Source: an uncultured Opitutia bacterium
GTDB taxonomy: Bacteria > Verrucomicrobiota > Verrucomicrobiia > Opitutales > Opitutaceae
DNA: 64,000 nucleotides
Assembly (NCBI GenBank): GCA_903862955.1
Contig: CAIPAH010000003.1
Span: 1 to 64,000 of the forward strand
Direction of reading: 5' to 3'
Below are positions 250 through 40,575 of the stretch, piece after piece. The notes under the pieces were generated by a model. The model was not told the DNA's origin and did not search any database. It worked only from the letters and a program-made list of their open reading frames with translations. The first letter of the stretch is position 1, and each line of letters starts with the position of its first letter. The position numbers were made by a program, and so were the translations under genes.

Positions 250-1068
250 TTACTGGATCAACTTCAGGGCGCTCTGCGCGCTCTGGTTGGCCTGGGCGAG
301 CATCGCCGTGCCAGACTGCACGAGGATGTTCCACCGGGCGAGTTGCGTGGACTCGGCGGCGACGTCCACGTCGGTGATCCGGCTCGAGGCGGCCTCGAGG
401 TTGGCCTTGTTGACCGTGAGCAGCTCCGAGGCGAAGCCGAAACGGCTCTGCTCGGCACCGTTGCCGGCGCGGAACGTAGCGACGTTCTGGATGGCATCGG
501 TGACATTGGTCAACGAGATGGCGCCGAGGTCGGTGGCGCTGGTGCTCGTGAGAGCGGCGACGCCGGCCGTGGTGCCATTGAGGTCGCGACCAGCGATGGT
601 CACGGCTGAGGACGTGCTGCCATCCTCAGTCACAGCCACCGAGAGGGAGCTGCTGCCGAAGAGGCTGACGCCGTTGAACTTTTCCGTCGCCAGGGAAGTC
701 AGCTGCGACTTGAGTTCAGTGAACTCGGAATCGTAGTTGGCCTTGTCACTGGAGTTCTTGGTCGGGTCCGAGTACAGGGTCTTCAACTCGCTGATGCGGT
801 CGAGGACCTTGCCAGCCACCTGCAGCGCTCCGTCCTGCGTCTGCAGGAAGGAAACGGCGTTGCCGATGTTGCTGGAAACCGCGCCTTGGCGTTTGGCCGC
901 CGCGGACAGTTTCATGGAAACCGCCAGGCCACCCGCGTCATCGGCGGGGCTGACGATCTTGGACCCGCTCGAGAGCCGGTTCAGGCTTTTCTGGAGCATG
1001 GCGTTGGACGCGGCCAGATTGTTTGCAGCAATCGTTGCCGAGTAGTTGGTATTAATCACGACTGACAT
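250..1068 (-). CDS. flagellin 1
   Basis: Flagellar filament subunit, 272 residues, exported by the flagellar type III system and polymerised under FliD. The conserved N-terminal D0/D1 region (MSVVINTNYSATIAANNL, then SSGSKIVSPADDAGGLAVS) and the C-terminal coiled region (ITDVDVAAESTQLARWNILVQSG, AMLAQANQ) are both present. The central variable domain is short. The reading frame is open upstream, but the start at 1068 is chosen because it begins the conserved N terminus and is preceded by AAGGAA. It has the same length as flagellin 2 and is closely similar to it, so this is a tandem duplication. The leader contains a GGA-loop hairpin described separately. I found no convincing sigma-28 promoter for this copy. 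The gene name (fliC or hag) is left blank because there are three paralogues. Confidence 0.95.
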   Translation of the reverse strand: MSVVINTNYSATIAANNLAASNAMLQKSLNRLSSGSKIVSPADDAGGLAVSMKLSAAAKRQGAVSSNIGNAVSFLQTQDGALQVAGKVLDRISELKTLYSDPTKNSSDKANYDSEFTELKSQLTSLATEKFNGVSLFGSSSLSVAVTEDGSTSSAVTIAGRDLNGTTAGVAALTSTSATDLGAISLTNVTDAIQNVATFRAGNGAEQSRFGFASELLTVNKANLEAASSRITDVDVAAESTQLARWNILVQSGTAMLAQANQSAQSALKLIQ

Positions 1069-1075
1069 GGTTCTT

Positions 1076-1107
1076 TCCTTGATCTTAATGCGACTATCCG
1101 TCGTCGC
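1076..1107 (-). promoter_or_regulatory. candidate CsrA-binding leader of flagellin 1
   Basis: Read on the minus strand, GCGAC (1103-1107) pairs with GTCGC (1090-1094). The loop GACGGATA carries a GGA (1097-1099). A second GGA (1076-1078) lies in the Shine-Dalgarno AAGGAA. The two GGA triplets are 21 nt apart, and the loop GGA begins 31 nt before the ATG. This is the two-site layout known for CsrA repression, and csrA and fliW lie in this window. The flagellin 2 leader has the same geometry. Confidence 0.65.
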
Positions 1108-1294
1108 CACGTGTCCGGATAAGCAGCGCCGGACCGCGCTGTCTGGGGCGAAAGCCCCAAAGGGGATCCGCACCGGGGTGCGGAAATGGGAGGAAAAAAG
1201 AACCCTGGCCCCACCCGGAGCCGACAACCGCGTTAGCTCGGGCGCGGGACCGGGGGACTAGCCCGGCCCGCGGGGTGGGGACAGGTGCGCTCGC

Positions 1295-2113
1295 TTACTG
1301 GAGCAGCTTGAGCGCGACCTGGGCGCTCTGGTTGGCCTGGGCCAGCATCGCCGTGCCCGATTGCACGAGGATGTTCCACCGGGCCAGCTGGGTGGATTCG
1401 GCGGCGACGTCGACGTCGGTGATGCGGCTCGAGGCGGCCTCGAGGTTGGCCTTGTTCACCGTGAGAAGGTCGCTGGCGAAGCCCAAGCGGCTCTGCTCGG
1501 CGCCGTTCTGGGCGCGGAACGTCGCGACATTCTGGATCGCGGCGGTGATGTCGGTGAGGGCAATCGCCCCGAGATCGGTCGCGGAGGTGGCGGTGAGCGC
1601 GCCGACGCCGGTGGCCGTGCTGGTGAGGTCACGGCCGGCGATCGTGACGGCGGACGTCGTGCTGCCATCCTCGGTCACGGGCACGCTGAGGCTGGAGGTG
1701 CCGAAGAGGCTGACGCCGTTGAACTGCTCGCCGGTGAGGGCGCTGAGCTGGCTCTTCAACTCGGTGAATTCGGAGTCGTAGTTGGCCTTGTCGTTGGCGT
1801 TCTTCGTCGGGTCATTGTACAGGGTCTTCAGCTCGCCCATGCGGTCGAGGACCTTGCCGGTGACGGAGAGGACGCCGTCCTGCGTCTGCAGGAACGACAC
1901 GGAGTTGCCGATGTTCTGCGAGACGGCGCCCTGGCGCTTGGCCGCGGCGGACAGTTTCATCGCGACGGCGAGGCCACCCGCATCATCGGCGGGGCTGACG
2001 ATCTTGGAACCGCTCGAGAGCCGGTTGAGGCTCTTCTGCAACATTTCGTTGGAGCGGGCGAGGTTGTTCGCGGCGACGGTCGCCGCGTAGTTGGTGTTAA
2101 TGACGACGGACAT
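1295..2113 (-). CDS. flagellin 2
   Basis: Second filament subunit, 272 residues, a near copy of flagellin 1 with substitutions concentrated in the central region (residues about 120-190). The start at 2113 opens the conserved MSVVINTNYAATVAANN segment and has AAGGA upstream. The C terminus ends with AQVALKLLQ. Its promoter is a sigma-28-type box at 2216-2242, and its leader carries a GGA-loop hairpin followed by a GGA-containing Shine-Dalgarno. The 226 bases between its stop and the start of flagellin 1 hold the flagellin 1 leader and two further GC hairpins, so the two copies may be expressed separately or by read-through. Confidence 0.95.
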   Translation of the reverse strand: MSVVINTNYAATVAANNLARSNEMLQKSLNRLSSGSKIVSPADDAGGLAVAMKLSAAAKRQGAVSQNIGNSVSFLQTQDGVLSVTGKVLDRMGELKTLYNDPTKNANDKANYDSEFTELKSQLSALTGEQFNGVSLFGTSSLSVPVTEDGSTTSAVTIAGRDLTSTATGVGALTATSATDLGAIALTDITAAIQNVATFRAQNGAEQSRLGFASDLLTVNKANLEAASSRITDVDVAAESTQLARWNILVQSGTAMLAQANQSAQVALKLLQ

Positions 2114-2120
2114 GGTATCT

Positions 2121-2151
2121 TCCTTGATGCTAAGCGCGGCTTCCGTGCCGC
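2121..2151 (-). promoter_or_regulatory. candidate CsrA-binding leader of flagellin 2
   Basis: On the minus strand, GCGGC (2147-2151) pairs with GCCGC (2136-2140). The loop ACGGAA contains GGA at 2142-2144. The second GGA (2121-2123) is in the Shine-Dalgarno. The spacing between the GGAs is 21 nt and from loop GGA to ATG is 31 nt, both identical to flagellin 1, while the stem bases differ and still pair. Confidence 0.65.
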
Positions 2152-2215
2152 AGTCGGACCCGGTGGATTCAGCTCCGGGTCGCGCCGGTCGGGGCTCTTG
2201 CCTCGACGTGGGGGA

Positions 2216-2242
2216 TGATCGGACCACCCGCGAAAAACATTT
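2216..2242 (-). promoter_or_regulatory. sigma-28 (FliA) promoter of flagellin 2
   Basis: On the minus strand the box reads AAATGTTT - 11 bases - TCCGATCA, matching the FliA consensus TAAAGTTT-N11-GCCGATAA at 6 of 8 positions in each half with exact spacing. The predicted start lies about 95 bases before the flagellin 2 ATG, so the transcript includes the GGA hairpin. A fliA gene is present at 28641-29435. Confidence 0.65.
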
Positions 2243-2380
2243 GCGGAAAAGCTAAATTCTTTTTCCGCCCCGCGCCCTGGCCTGGAATTGCGGGAGCTTT
2301 TCCGCCGGCCTCCCTCGCGCAGGCCGGTCTGCGACGGCAGGCGGCCTCGGTAGGCGAGGCGGGGAAGGCCATTTTCCGTC

Positions 2381-2438: not shown

Positions 2439-4175
2439 ATGTCCGGCATCCAAATCTCAGGTCTCCTTTCGAACTCGGCTTTCGACTGGAAGTCCGTCGT
2501 TGACCAGCTCATCACCGCCGATTCCGCGCCCATCACGGCGCTGACCACCCAAAAGACCACCAACACCAGCAAGGTGACGGCCCTCTCCGGGCTCCAGACC
2601 GCGCTGCAGGACCTGCAGGACTCGCTGCAGTCCATCCGGTCGGGCGATCTGTTCTCGCTGCGCAATGTCAACTCTGACACCGCCGGCACGACGTGGAAGT
2701 CGAACTCCGCGAACGGCGCCACCGTCGGCAGCTATAAATTTGCCGTCCAGCAGCTCGCCACTGCCACGACGGTGCAGGGCGCCGCGGACGTCGGCGCGGG
2801 CCTCGCGGCGACGAGCGTCGTCAGCGGACTCACCCTGGCCAACCTTCCGACCGCGACCGCCGTCACCGCGGGCACGTTCACGGTGGACGGAAAGACAGTG
2901 ACCATCGCGCTGACGGATTCCCTGCAGGACGTGTTCGACAAGATCTCCACGGCCACCGCGGGCGATGTCACCGCGAGTTACGACCCGACCAGCGATCACA
3001 TTTCCCTCACCAGCGGCAGCGGCGAGCTGGTCCTGGGCGCGGCGAATGACACGAGTAATTTTCTCTCGGTGATGAAGCTGGCCAACAACGGCACCGCCAC
3101 CGCCGCGAGTTCCTCGTCCCTCGGCACGCTCCGCCTCGCCAGTCCCCTGGCCAGCGCGGGCTTGAAGGGCACGATCACCGCCGTCGATGGCTCGGGCAAC
3201 GGCTCGTTCTCGATCAACGGCGTCAGCATCAGCTACAACGTCAATTCCGACAGCCTCAGCACCATCCTCGGCCGCATCAACCAGTCGGGCGCCGGTGTGA
3301 CTGCGAACTACGATCCGTCGGCCGACCGCGTGACGCTTACCAACGCCAAGACCGGTGACATGGGCATGGGAGTCAGCGACGTGACAGGCGGGCTGCTCGA
3401 CGTCCTGGGACTGACTTCTCCGTCCAGCACGCTGACCCGCGGCGTGAACGCCCGCTTTACCGTCAACGGCGGCCCGACCCTGACCAGCACCAGCAACACG
3501 CTGGACAGCTCCGTCCATGGCATCACTGGACTGAGCGTGACGGTGAACACCCAGGCTACGCAGACGGTGACCGTGGACAGCGACACATCGTCGATGCAGA
3601 CGGCGATCCAGAACTTCCTCGACAAGTTCAACGCCGTGCAGGACTCGATCGACACCAACACCAAGACGACCGTCTCCTCCGGCACGGTGACGACGTCGGT
3701 GCTCTCCGACAACCGCGAGGTCCAAGCCTGGGGAAGCAAGCTCCGCTCGCTGGTCTTCGACGCCGTGAGCGGCGTGACCGGCACCGTGCAGCGCCTCGAT
3801 AACCTCGGGATCGACTTCGACTCCACCACCGGCCACCTCACGATCAAGAACTCCGACAAGCTCGCCACGGCGCTGGCGGATCATCCCGACGACGTGAAGG
3901 CGTTCTTCCTGACGCCCGGCACGGGTCTGGTGTCCAAGGGCTACACTTACCTGACGAACCTGATCAGCGCCGACAGCACGCAGCAGGACAACCTGAACAA
4001 GGCGTCGACGGACATCGACACGCAGATCACCACGCTCCAGGCGCGCCTCGATGCGGAGCGGCAGCAGCTGACCAATTCCTTCATCCAGATGCTCGACGCC
4101 CAGTCCATGGCGCAGAGCCAGAACACCACGCTGACCAACGCGTTCTTCAAGAACACGAGCAGCAGCGGCAACTAA
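2439..4175 (+). CDS. fliD: flagellar filament cap protein FliD (hook-associated protein 2)
   Basis: The pentameric FliD cap sits at the filament tip and helps exported flagellin fold into place. The protein has 578 residues. The N-terminal FliD_N region (ISGLLSNSAFDWKSVVDQLI, then coiled residues to about 70) and the C-terminal coiled FliD_C region (residues about 380-570, ending DAQSMAQSQNTTLTNAFF) fit the family. The middle is rich in Ser/Thr and contains repeated flagellin-hook-IN-like segments, as in longer FliD proteins. It is the first gene of a plus-strand operon read from a sigma-28 promoter and followed after 2 bases by a lipoprotein gene. Confidence 0.95.
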   Translation: MSGIQISGLLSNSAFDWKSVVDQLITADSAPITALTTQKTTNTSKVTALSGLQTALQDLQDSLQSIRSGDLFSLRNVNSDTAGTTWKSNSANGATVGSYKFAVQQLATATTVQGAADVGAGLAATSVVSGLTLANLPTATAVTAGTFTVDGKTVTIALTDSLQDVFDKISTATAGDVTASYDPTSDHISLTSGSGELVLGAANDTSNFLSVMKLANNGTATAASSSSLGTLRLASPLASAGLKGTITAVDGSGNGSFSINGVSISYNVNSDSLSTILGRINQSGAGVTANYDPSADRVTLTNAKTGDMGMGVSDVTGGLLDVLGLTSPSSTLTRGVNARFTVNGGPTLTSTSNTLDSSVHGITGLSVTVNTQATQTVTVDSDTSSMQTAIQNFLDKFNAVQDSIDTNTKTTVSSGTVTTSVLSDNREVQAWGSKLRSLVFDAVSGVTGTVQRLDNLGIDFDSTTGHLTIKNSDKLATALADHPDDVKAFFLTPGTGLVSKGYTYLTNLISADSTQQDNLNKASTDIDTQITTLQARLDAERQQLTNSFIQMLDAQSMAQSQNTTLTNAFFKNTSSSGN

Positions 4176-38963: not shown

Positions 38964-39428
38964 ATGAAAGTCCTCCCTGACGTCTATCCCACCGATTTCG
39001 ATCCGCCCCCGGCGAACGAGCTCATCCTGCCCAACGGCCTGATCGGCTTCGGCGCGTACCAGCGGGCCGAGCTGCTGTATCTGCCCGATCATCTCCCATT
39101 CCTGTGGATGAAGCTCCACGGCCCCGAGGTCCTGCACTTCATCGTGATCGAGCCGGGCGGGATCATTCCCGGCTATGAACCCGAGATCTTCGACGAGGAC
39201 GCCGCCCAGCTCGACCTCCGCACGCCCGCCGAGGCCATGATTCTCAACATCGTCACGCTCCGCCGCCAGCAGCCCGTCGAGGCCACCGTGAACCTCATCG
39301 GCCCGGTCGTCGTCAACCGCCGCACCCGCACCGGCCGGCAGCTCGTGATCTCCAATTACTCGCGCTACAGCGCGCATCATTCCCTTGTGGAAAACCCGCA
39401 GGCCTCCAGCATCGCCCGCACAGCCTGA
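38964..39428 (+). CDS. fliW: flagellar assembly factor FliW
   Basis: FliW binds flagellin and, when free, binds and inactivates CsrA, so that flagellin is translated only when the cell can export it. 154 residues with the family features [102 protein letters not shown]. It is followed after 7 bases by csrA, the classic partner arrangement. Confidence 0.94.
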
Positions 39429-39435
39429 GTCCGCC

Positions 39436-39684
39436 ATGCTCGTCCTCTCCCGCAAAATCAACGAGTCGATCATCATCGGTGACAACATCGAGATCCGCAT
39501 CACGCGGATTGACGGTGACAGCGTGAAGATCGGCATCGCGGCGCCCCGTGACGTCCCGATCTTCCGCAAGGAAGTCCTCACCACCATCGCCGCGAGCAAC
39601 CAGGCCGCCGCCGTGCGCCCGCCGCCGACCGGGGCGCTGCCCGCACTGCCGGCCAAGTCCGCCATCACCCCGTCCAAAACCTGA
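39436..39684 (+). CDS. csrA: carbon storage regulator CsrA
   Basis: Dimeric RNA-binding repressor of translation at GGA hairpins. 82 residues from the ATG at 39436. The core [47 protein letters not shown] has the RNA-contact residues L4 and R44. The Ala/Pro-rich C-terminal tail (about 25 residues) is longer than usual. In the FliW partner-switch the main target is flagellin mRNA, and candidate sites are present in the leaders of flagellins 1 and 2. It lies between fliW and a third flagellin gene. Confidence 0.96.
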
Positions 39685-39693
39685 CCCACTGCC

Positions 39694-40575
39694 ATGAGCG
39701 TCCTTCCCGCCAATTTTTCCGCCCTCAACTCCGCCAGCGCCCTCGAACGCGCCTCCGACCTGCTGAACCGTTCGTTGAGCCGACTCTCCTCCGGCACGAA
39801 GATCGTCACGCCCGCCGACGACTCCGCCGGCCTGGCGCTGGCCTCCAAGCTCGACGCCCAGAACCTGCGCCTCAGCGCCGCCAGCACCAACGTGCAGAAC
39901 GCGGTCTCCTCCGTGCAGTCGGGCGAAAGTTTCCTGAGCAGCATGGGCAACGTCCTTTCCCGCCTCGGAGAACTGGCCGGCATGGCCCAGGACCCCACGA
40001 AGAGCGCTTCCGATCTCGCGCTTTACCAGCAGGAATTCTCGTCCCTCCAGGACCAGTTGCGCGCCACGATTGGCGGAACCACCGCGCAGATCGGCGGCAC
40101 CACGGACGTCACGCAGCCTCTCGGCTCGTTCAACGGCGTGGCGCTTTTCGGCGCGACGGCGTCCGGCGGCCAGACCCTCACGGTGGGCGACACCAGTGGC
40201 GAGACACTGACAATTCCCGACGTGAATCTCCGGACCGGCAGCATGCTCGGCCTCATCGGCCAGGACAGCACGGGTGCCTACACGCTGCAGCTCTCTGATC
40301 CCACGGCCCTCGCCACAGTCAACAGCGCCACCCAGCAACTTGGCGCCGGACAAGCGACCCTCGGCGCTGCGGATTCCAGCCTTTCAATGACCGCCGCGAA
40401 ACTGTCGGTCGAGGGCGAGAACCTCACCGCATCTCTTTCCAGCATCCGCGACGTCGACGTGGCCACCGAGTCCACCGCCTACGCCAAATACAACATCAAG
40501 GTGCAGGCGAGCACCGCGATGCTGGCGCAGGCGAACCAGGATCCGGCGGCTGTGCTGCAACTGCTGCGGGCCTGA
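39694..40575 (+). CDS. flagellin 3 (divergent flagellin-family protein)
   Basis: 293 residues of the flagellin family, clearly different from the tandem pair. The N terminus is NFSALNSASALERASDLLNRSLSRLSSGTKIVTPADDSAGLALASKLDAQNLRL, and the C terminus is IRDVDVATESTAYAKYNIKVQASTAMLAQANQDPAAVLQLL. The starting helix is diverged from the NTN type. It ends the flgF operon (sigma-54 class), directly after csrA, and has neither a sigma-28 box nor a GGA leader. It may be a minor filament protein made early. Confidence 0.9.
   Translation: MSVLPANFSALNSASALERASDLLNRSLSRLSSGTKIVTPADDSAGLALASKLDAQNLRLSAASTNVQNAVSSVQSGESFLSSMGNVLSRLGELAGMAQDPTKSASDLALYQQEFSSLQDQLRATIGGTTAQIGGTTDVTQPLGSFNGVALFGATASGGQTLTVGDTSGETLTIPDVNLRTGSMLGLIGQDSTGAYTLQLSDPTALATVNSATQQLGAGQATLGAADSSLSMTAAKLSVEGENLTASLSSIRDVDVATESTAYAKYNIKVQASTAMLAQANQDPAAVLQLLRA

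Follow-up and report, generated by a model that had tools for sequence, protein, structure and literature searches.

The window, i.e., the whole stretch of 64,000 nucleotides that was analysed, contains two tandem flagellin genes on the minus strand and, on the plus strand, fliW, csrA and a third flagellin gene (Table 1). It belongs to a genome of the Opitutaceae kind: the four sequences that match flagellin 2 best come from Opitutae and Opitutaceae MAGs and are 71-88% identical to it over nearly the full length. The preliminary description reported in both tandem leaders a 5-bp hairpin (here referred to as hairpin H) whose loop holds ACGGA, together with another GGA within the Shine-Dalgarno (SD) sequence, and direct reading of the sequence bears this out. 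So it does for the equal spacing of the two leaders (21 nt from GGA to GGA and 31 nt from the loop GGA to the ATG) and for the adjacency of fliW, csrA and a flagellin gene lacking the element (38964-40575). The stems were also said to differ in sequence and still to pair, which is true, but the difference between the two paralogs amounts to a single compensatory pair (A-U to G-C), which is weak when taken alone; real covariation is provided by the relatives. What the preliminary description missed in its otherwise valid picture of a hairpin with two GGA sites is a pseudoknot, a 5' hairpin (P1), a small hairpin at the SD, and a difference between the leaders of first and later genes.

Table 1. 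Flagellin genes, leader elements and the fliW-csrA region in the window.
Feature	Position	Strand	Basis or comment
Flagellin 1 gene, second of the tandem pair	250..1068	minus	CDS 1068-250
Flagellin 1 SD region, AUCAAGGAAAGAA	1071..1083	minus	location of the second GGA, which no 3-bp stem encloses
Flagellin 1 hairpin H, GCGAC-GACGGAUA-GUCGC (DNA GCGAC-GACGGATA-GTCGC)	1090..1107	minus	8-nt loop; sequence reading
Flagellin 1 H-type pseudoknot, S1 CAGCG/CGCUG, S2 GUCCGG/CCGGAC	1113..1141	minus	loop CUUAU
Flagellin 1 5' hairpin P1, UUUGGGGC-UUUC-GCCCCAGA	1142..1161	minus	covariation in relatives
Flagellin 2 gene, transcribed first of the tandem pair	1295..2113	minus	CDS 2113-1295
Flagellin 2 SD hairpin, AUC-AAGGAA-GAU	2117..2128	minus	predicted CsrA site 2, overlapping the ribosome-binding site; sequence reading
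Flagellin 2 hairpin H, GCGGC-ACGGAA-GCCGC	2136..2151	minus	C-ANGGAN-G hexaloop, predicted high-affinity CsrA site 1; sequence reading and covariation in relatives
Flagellin 2 H-type pseudoknot, S1 CGGC/GCUG, S2 GACCCGG/CCGGGUC	2157..2187	minus	5 nt upstream of H; covariation and per-sequence search
Flagellin 2 5' hairpin P1, GUCGaGGC-AAGA-GCCcCGAC	2188..2207	minus	covariation in relatives
Weak sigma-28-like promoter upstream of flagellin 2, CAAATGTTT ... TCCGATCAT	2215..2243	minus	assumed consensus
fliW	38964..39428	plus	PF02623, E 5.6e-28; matches FliW of PDB entry 5dmb, E 9.6e-11
csrA, 82 aa, with C-terminal tail	39436..39684	plus	PF02599, E 1.4e-23; matches CsrA of PDB entry 5dmb, E 1.3e-13; sole csrA match in the genome
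Third flagellin gene, 9 nt behind csrA	39694..40575	plus	upstream stretch without GGA hairpin

The CsrA protein has L4, V40 and R44, which we take to be RNA-contact residues, and PDB entry 5dmb, to which both proteins were matched by sequence, holds FliW as well as CsrA. The promoter-like sequence upstream of flagellin 2 was called by what we assume to be the sigma-28 consensus, and the transcription start point would fall near the foot of P1. The folding energies of the two leaders are unremarkable (z -1.59 and -0.59). A strong hairpin, CCGCACCCCGGTGCGG, lies on the minus strand at 1168-1183, between the tandem genes and upstream of the flagellin 1 leader, and is a possible processing or termination point.

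Both strands of the window were scanned for a perfect 5-bp stem with a loop of 6-8 nt containing A.GGA, followed by a second GGA 17-24 nt further on and then by a start codon. This arrangement occurs at exactly two places, namely the two flagellin leaders, compared with 0.04 occurrences per window in 100 mononucleotide shuffles.

Conservation among Opitutaceae

We collected 139 flagellin leaders from the matches listed, 2 from the window and 137 from relatives; they represent the window's genome and 66 relative genomes, of 79 genomes with a flagellin match. Alignment A1 consists of 134 of these leaders from 65 genomes. One leader was too short (L113) and four were left out by eye as having no GGA hairpin (L145, L167, L169 and L171); consequently, counts from A1 are counts among hairpin-bearing leaders. 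The leader L169 comes from a genome with six flagellin matches (G078) and has a hairpin in the right place, the loop of which lacks GGA.

The GGA hairpin is present in 134 of 138 family leaders. Within A1, all five stem pairs of H are formed in 122 of the 134 leaders, with 30 distinct stem sequences, and the SD GGA is present in every leader (134/134). The distance between the two GGAs ranges from 17 to 30 nt (18-22 nt in 122 leaders) and that from the loop GGA to the ATG from 28 to 40 nt; the hairpin is therefore conserved among relatives, as the preliminary description anticipated, but the exact 21/31-nt spacing varies and only its range is kept. The possibility that the arrangement is an artefact of the general SD consensus was rejected because the covarying stem of H falls outside the SD.

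The loop of H has six nucleotides in 75 of the 134 aligned leaders, and 68 of those 75 read ANGGAN, the six-nucleotide loop given as the RsmE/CsrA optimum in the part of PMC7652899 available to us. The 24 loops of seven nucleotides are mostly able to close one further pair, which yields a 6-bp stem with a pentaloop, and we consequently refer to such loops as altered rather than simply larger. A 3-bp stem around the SD GGA can be drawn in 117 of the 134 family leaders and is absent in 17, flagellin 1 among these; predicted folds do not include this stem. Its sequence, AUC/GAU, has changed mainly in one way, to AAC/GUU in 10 of the 134 leaders, and the longer stem found in other families (see below) is better support for the predicted SD hairpin than the 3-bp stem of this family.

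Covariation and the H-type pseudoknot

For a test independent of any assumed structure, a background-corrected covariation score was computed for all 6328 column pairs of A1. Four of the five pairs of H are among the top 20 and the fifth has rank 28; pairs of helix S2 (which crosses helix S1) and of P1 also rank high. So do some column pairs that are mostly unable to pair (e.g., 16-169 and 117-172), the probable reason being the presence of two leader types in the alignment. When the named structure is assessed in the 134 leaders, 80.2% of its cells are paired, compared with 62.6% after shuffling, and its covariation score is 0.484, compared with 0.203 after shuffling and at most 0.196 when the structure is slid. 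All 21 pairs, including the five of H, have changes on both sides. The fraction of paired cells is 96.6% in H, 78.1% in S2, 72.6% in S1, and 74.6% and 71.9% in P1. The comparison of relatives' leaders that had been proposed as a check of the initial observation thus finds the hairpin, its loop GGA and the SD GGA conserved and the stems covarying.

Helices S1 and S2 together form an H-type pseudoknot, the last strand of which stops a few nucleotides before H. A search of individual sequences found a pseudoknot with a score of at least 22 in 79% of 133 leaders, compared with 7.5% of dinucleotide shuffles, and none in 7% of the leaders. This search had no room for the 7-bp S2 of flagellin 2 and gave a weaker alternative there; by a wider search the flagellin 2 pseudoknot scores 29.5, which was reached by none of 40 shuffles.

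The pseudoknot is kept by structure, not by sequence, and its loops have no position at 90% conservation in the 134-row alignment. Searches against Rfam gave no match above the gathering score in the 64-kb window; in the leader regions of three relatives, searched to E 5, there was a single match (E 3.5), far under the cut-off of its family. The leader is a structured RNA without an Rfam match, which would add a pseudoknot to a known type of switch. H-type pseudoknots are found in small riboswitches, and this one adjoins a regulatory hairpin and has A-rich loops in several families, so one could propose that it is the aptamer of a small-molecule riboswitch controlling access to the hairpin and the SD. 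We rejected this as the first choice and consider it very improbable: with no loop position at 90% in 134 leaders there is no conserved ligand pocket, the letters of both stems and loops vary between families, and Rfam offers no match.

Specificity and distribution

In the genome of the window, R1, a covariance model built from the leader, gives two genuine matches, both of them flagellin leaders (94.4 and 86 bits); the third match has 10.7 bits and E 7. The hypothesis that the two-site arrangement arose by chance was rejected on the basis of these two genome matches and of the 0.04 occurrences per shuffled window. Over 384 genomes of the class, R1 has 23 matches with E <=1e-4 outside Opitutaceae, of which 22 were fetched: 21 stand directly before a flagellin N-terminus and one before a short ORF without a name in Pfam, which was applied to five of the genes behind the matches, the others being judged from the sequence letters. 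Among 16 weaker matches that were fetched, three stand before flagellin (L236, L237 and the second place in L224) and 13 do not. Strong R1 matches are flagellin-specific, i.e., they stand upstream of flagellin genes as expected of a flagellin leader.

One contig outside the family (L225, G182) has the element twice, at 2776-2853 before a flagellin gene that is frame-shifted further on and at 3960-4070 before a short ORF to which no Pfam family matches; these are possibly decayed flagellin copies.

A csrA gene was found in 30 of the 31 class genomes with an R1 match of E <=1e-4 (the family included), compared with 86 of 384 overall, although the presence of csrA is confounded with having flagella in general. 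The genome lacking a csrA match (G286) is a draft of 530 contigs and 95% completeness. There is likewise no csrA match in the element-bearing family drafts G039 (93% complete), G014 (81%), G087 (72%) and G106 (68%). Among 150 family genomes, csrA was found in 72, fliW in 74 and flagellin in 79. The 68% complete draft G106 contains an array (L133) of eight or more flagellin genes in which both types of leader occur.

The remaining 56 csrA-bearing genomes of the class have no strong R1 match. We inspected 30 of them, 28 of which have flagellin, and found a GGA hairpin in 12 of the 28; one of the 12 (L298) has no second GGA before the start. In the other 16 no GGA hairpin was seen in the pieces inspected, where five perfect pairs were required and which often hold the csrA-adjacent flagellin alone. 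Fifteen leaders from 11 of the 12 genomes, picked for having the hairpin, make up alignment A3. Their hairpin reads C-ANGGAN-G, with a 7-nt loop in two leaders, and both GGAs are invariant. The SD hairpin has a 5-bp stem here (e.g., GACTC-AAGGAAG-GAGTC), and every pair of it is formed in 93%. An H-type pseudoknot with the same succession of helices closely precedes H in 14 of the 15 leaders, and each is equalled by at most 2 of 40 shuffles. In ten of these loci (L278, L283, L285, L286, L288, L290, L294, L295, L299 and L300), the SD hairpin is separated from the GGA hairpin by an additional GC-rich one of the CCCC-GCAA-GGGG type.

In alignment A2, which has 45 rows, such a pseudoknot likewise occurs before H in 19 of the 20 leaders from outside the family, and over all rows 84.4% of the cells are paired in S1, 69.1% in S2 and 93.2% in H. 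Leaders with the pseudoknot thus come from 14 families in the class, namely Opitutaceae, four families reached via R1 and nine among the divergent leaders.

A second model, R2, was applied to 80 flagellin loci that a wide search had returned and matched strongly in five Opitutae loci only. Forms as divergent as the leaders of A3 are most likely missed by R2, so for other phyla the result should be read as "not found" rather than "absent". Six genomes beyond the class gave weak R2 matches (E 4.7e-4 to 0.009) with no GGA-loop hairpin and no flagellin visible behind them.

Leaders of first and later genes

In the flagellin arrays fetched, the leader type goes with the position of the gene. The first genes have a six-nucleotide H loop in 51 of 53 cases, 46 of which read ANGGAN, and in 49 of 53 the loops of H and of the SD hairpin each have six nucleotides. 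Among the later genes the H loop is altered (7-9 nt as counted) in 54 of 65, and both loops have six nucleotides in 10 of 65. Of 48 regions with two genes, 38 have the six-nucleotide type followed by the altered type, nine have six-nucleotide loops twice and one has altered loops twice; the reverse order does not occur. The window fits this pattern, with six-nucleotide loops at both sites of flagellin 2, the first gene; in flagellin 1, the second, the H loop has 8 nt and the SD stem is lacking. In 22 loci both genes are complete, and a strict loop rule classes 17 of the 22 first genes but none of the 22 second genes as canonical. Since extra loop nucleotides can lower the affinity of RsmE (PMC7652899, in the part available), the six-nucleotide loops are predicted to be tight CsrA sites and the altered ones weak.

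In the same 22 loci the flagellin proteins are 84% identical within a genome compared with 72-74% between genomes. The leaders of first and second genes are equally alike within (72.5%) and between (72.3%) genomes, and the second leaders are most alike among themselves (77.4%). On a protein tree, an average of 13.7 out of 15 independent pairs have a leader class that tracks gene position, and the reverse never occurs (median p 1.2e-4). Either gene conversion has homogenised the coding part with the leader types kept, or pairs have originated repeatedly with the same change in the leader, and both alternatives suggest selection on the leader type.

A crude sigma-28-like pattern was found within 200 nt of 36 of 52 first-in-array leaders of relatives but of only 2 of 64 later ones. 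With later genes mostly devoid of such a pattern and another strong hairpin at 1183-1168 in the window, the hairpins might be taken for transcription terminators or processing sites between tandem genes. We find this hardly credible, since the same structure precedes the first genes, behind their promoter pattern, and in the window's leaders H is followed not by a U-run but by the SD.

Discussion

We propose that the leaders are targets of a FliW-CsrA flagellin homeostasis switch, with CsrA sites that are predicted from sequence comparison and analogy, and assign this reading a probability of roughly 0.8. It was put forward in the preliminary description and is supported by the conservation and covariation of the element, its flagellin-specific strong matches and the co-occurrence of csrA and fliW. 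By homology to Bacillus and Campylobacter, a CsrA dimer would dock on the loop GGA of H, bridge ~20 nt to the SD GGA and exclude the ribosome; export of flagellin would then free FliW, which would antagonise CsrA and allow translation to resume. The third flagellin, adjacent to csrA, may escape the switch, judging by its leader; the csrA-adjacent flagellin also lacks the element in all six distant genomes where the start pattern recognised one (L274, L276, L279, L282, L289 and L297). In the arrays, the six-nucleotide loops of first genes would bind CsrA tightly and the altered loops of most later genes more weakly, and with affinities graded in this way the paralogs would be released at different levels of FliW.

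Flagellin mRNA is abundant, and the leader might be a 5' stabiliser or an enhancer of translation of a generic kind, with the GGAs of the loop and the SD unrelated to CsrA. Structure does cover most of the 5' UTR, and GGA is common in SD sequences anyway. Such a function, however, requires neither a covarying hairpin with GGA in its loop, which 134 of 138 leaders have, nor an ANGGAN loop of six nucleotides, which 46 of 53 first genes have, and csrA co-occurs with the element (30/31). We therefore regard this explanation as quite unlikely.

The lower half of the leader, with its predicted SD hairpin, matches the proven flaA leader of Campylobacter. According to the available part of PMC4894983, the C. 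jejuni flaA leader has two stem-loops with ANGGA loops, the second over the ribosome-binding site, and compensatory changes among relatives; CsrA binding was shown, with a Kd raised four- to tenfold by GGA mutation, and FliW is the partner of CsrA. Unlike that leader, which is 45 nt long and for which the same part mentions no pseudoknot, the leaders described here are ~100 nt long, have P1 and the pseudoknot in front and differ in a graded manner between tandem paralogs in their loops. In B. subtilis, a CsrA dimer occludes the SD of hag and FliW relieves this; flagellin mRNA is the target and fliW and csrA are neighbours there as well, but the phylum is another and the accessible part of PMC6529632 does not mention a pseudoknot for hag. 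The E. coli glgC leader resembles ours in having a GGA hairpin of high affinity shortly before an SD site, the two being bridged by one CsrA dimer, but it belongs to a metabolic gene and CsrA activity is set there by the CsrB/C sRNAs; FliW is absent from Gammaproteobacteria (PMC7652899, as far as available).

A full-text search of open-access papers returned none on pseudoknot, flagellin and Verrucomicrobia together, and among the matches listed no open-access paper concerned, by title, CsrA and a pseudoknot in flagellar leaders or FliW, CsrA or flagellin in Verrucomicrobi- or Opitut-. The comparative evidence extends the FliW-CsrA flagellin switch to a little-studied Verrucomicrobial line. 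The leaders of first and later genes form a natural series, where the proteins are alike within a genome and the leader type is tied to gene position. This makes it possible to ask by experiment what job the pseudoknot has ahead of the predicted CsrA site and whether differences in CsrA affinity tune the paralogous flagellins.

The pseudoknot and P1 fill most of the remaining 5' UTR and most likely serve as a ligand-independent scaffold of the 5' end, which would insulate and present hairpin H and stabilise the mRNA; a scaffold is the simplest role for the pseudoknot because no loop letters are conserved. FliW binds the hag leader of Bacillus too. More tentatively, and on balance doubtfully, the pseudoknot could be a second input to the flagellin switch, kept by structure across the class, that binds FliW or another flagellar protein or alternates between an open form and a folded one so as to expose or hide the CsrA hairpin; combined with position-tied leader types and proteins converging within genomes, it might order the tandem flagellins along the filament. 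In three first-gene leaders of relatives (L152, L153 and L155), P1 itself carries a six-nucleotide GGA loop, AGCGC-AAGGAU-GUGCU, that is near the SELEX consensus for CsrA and is a possible third site.
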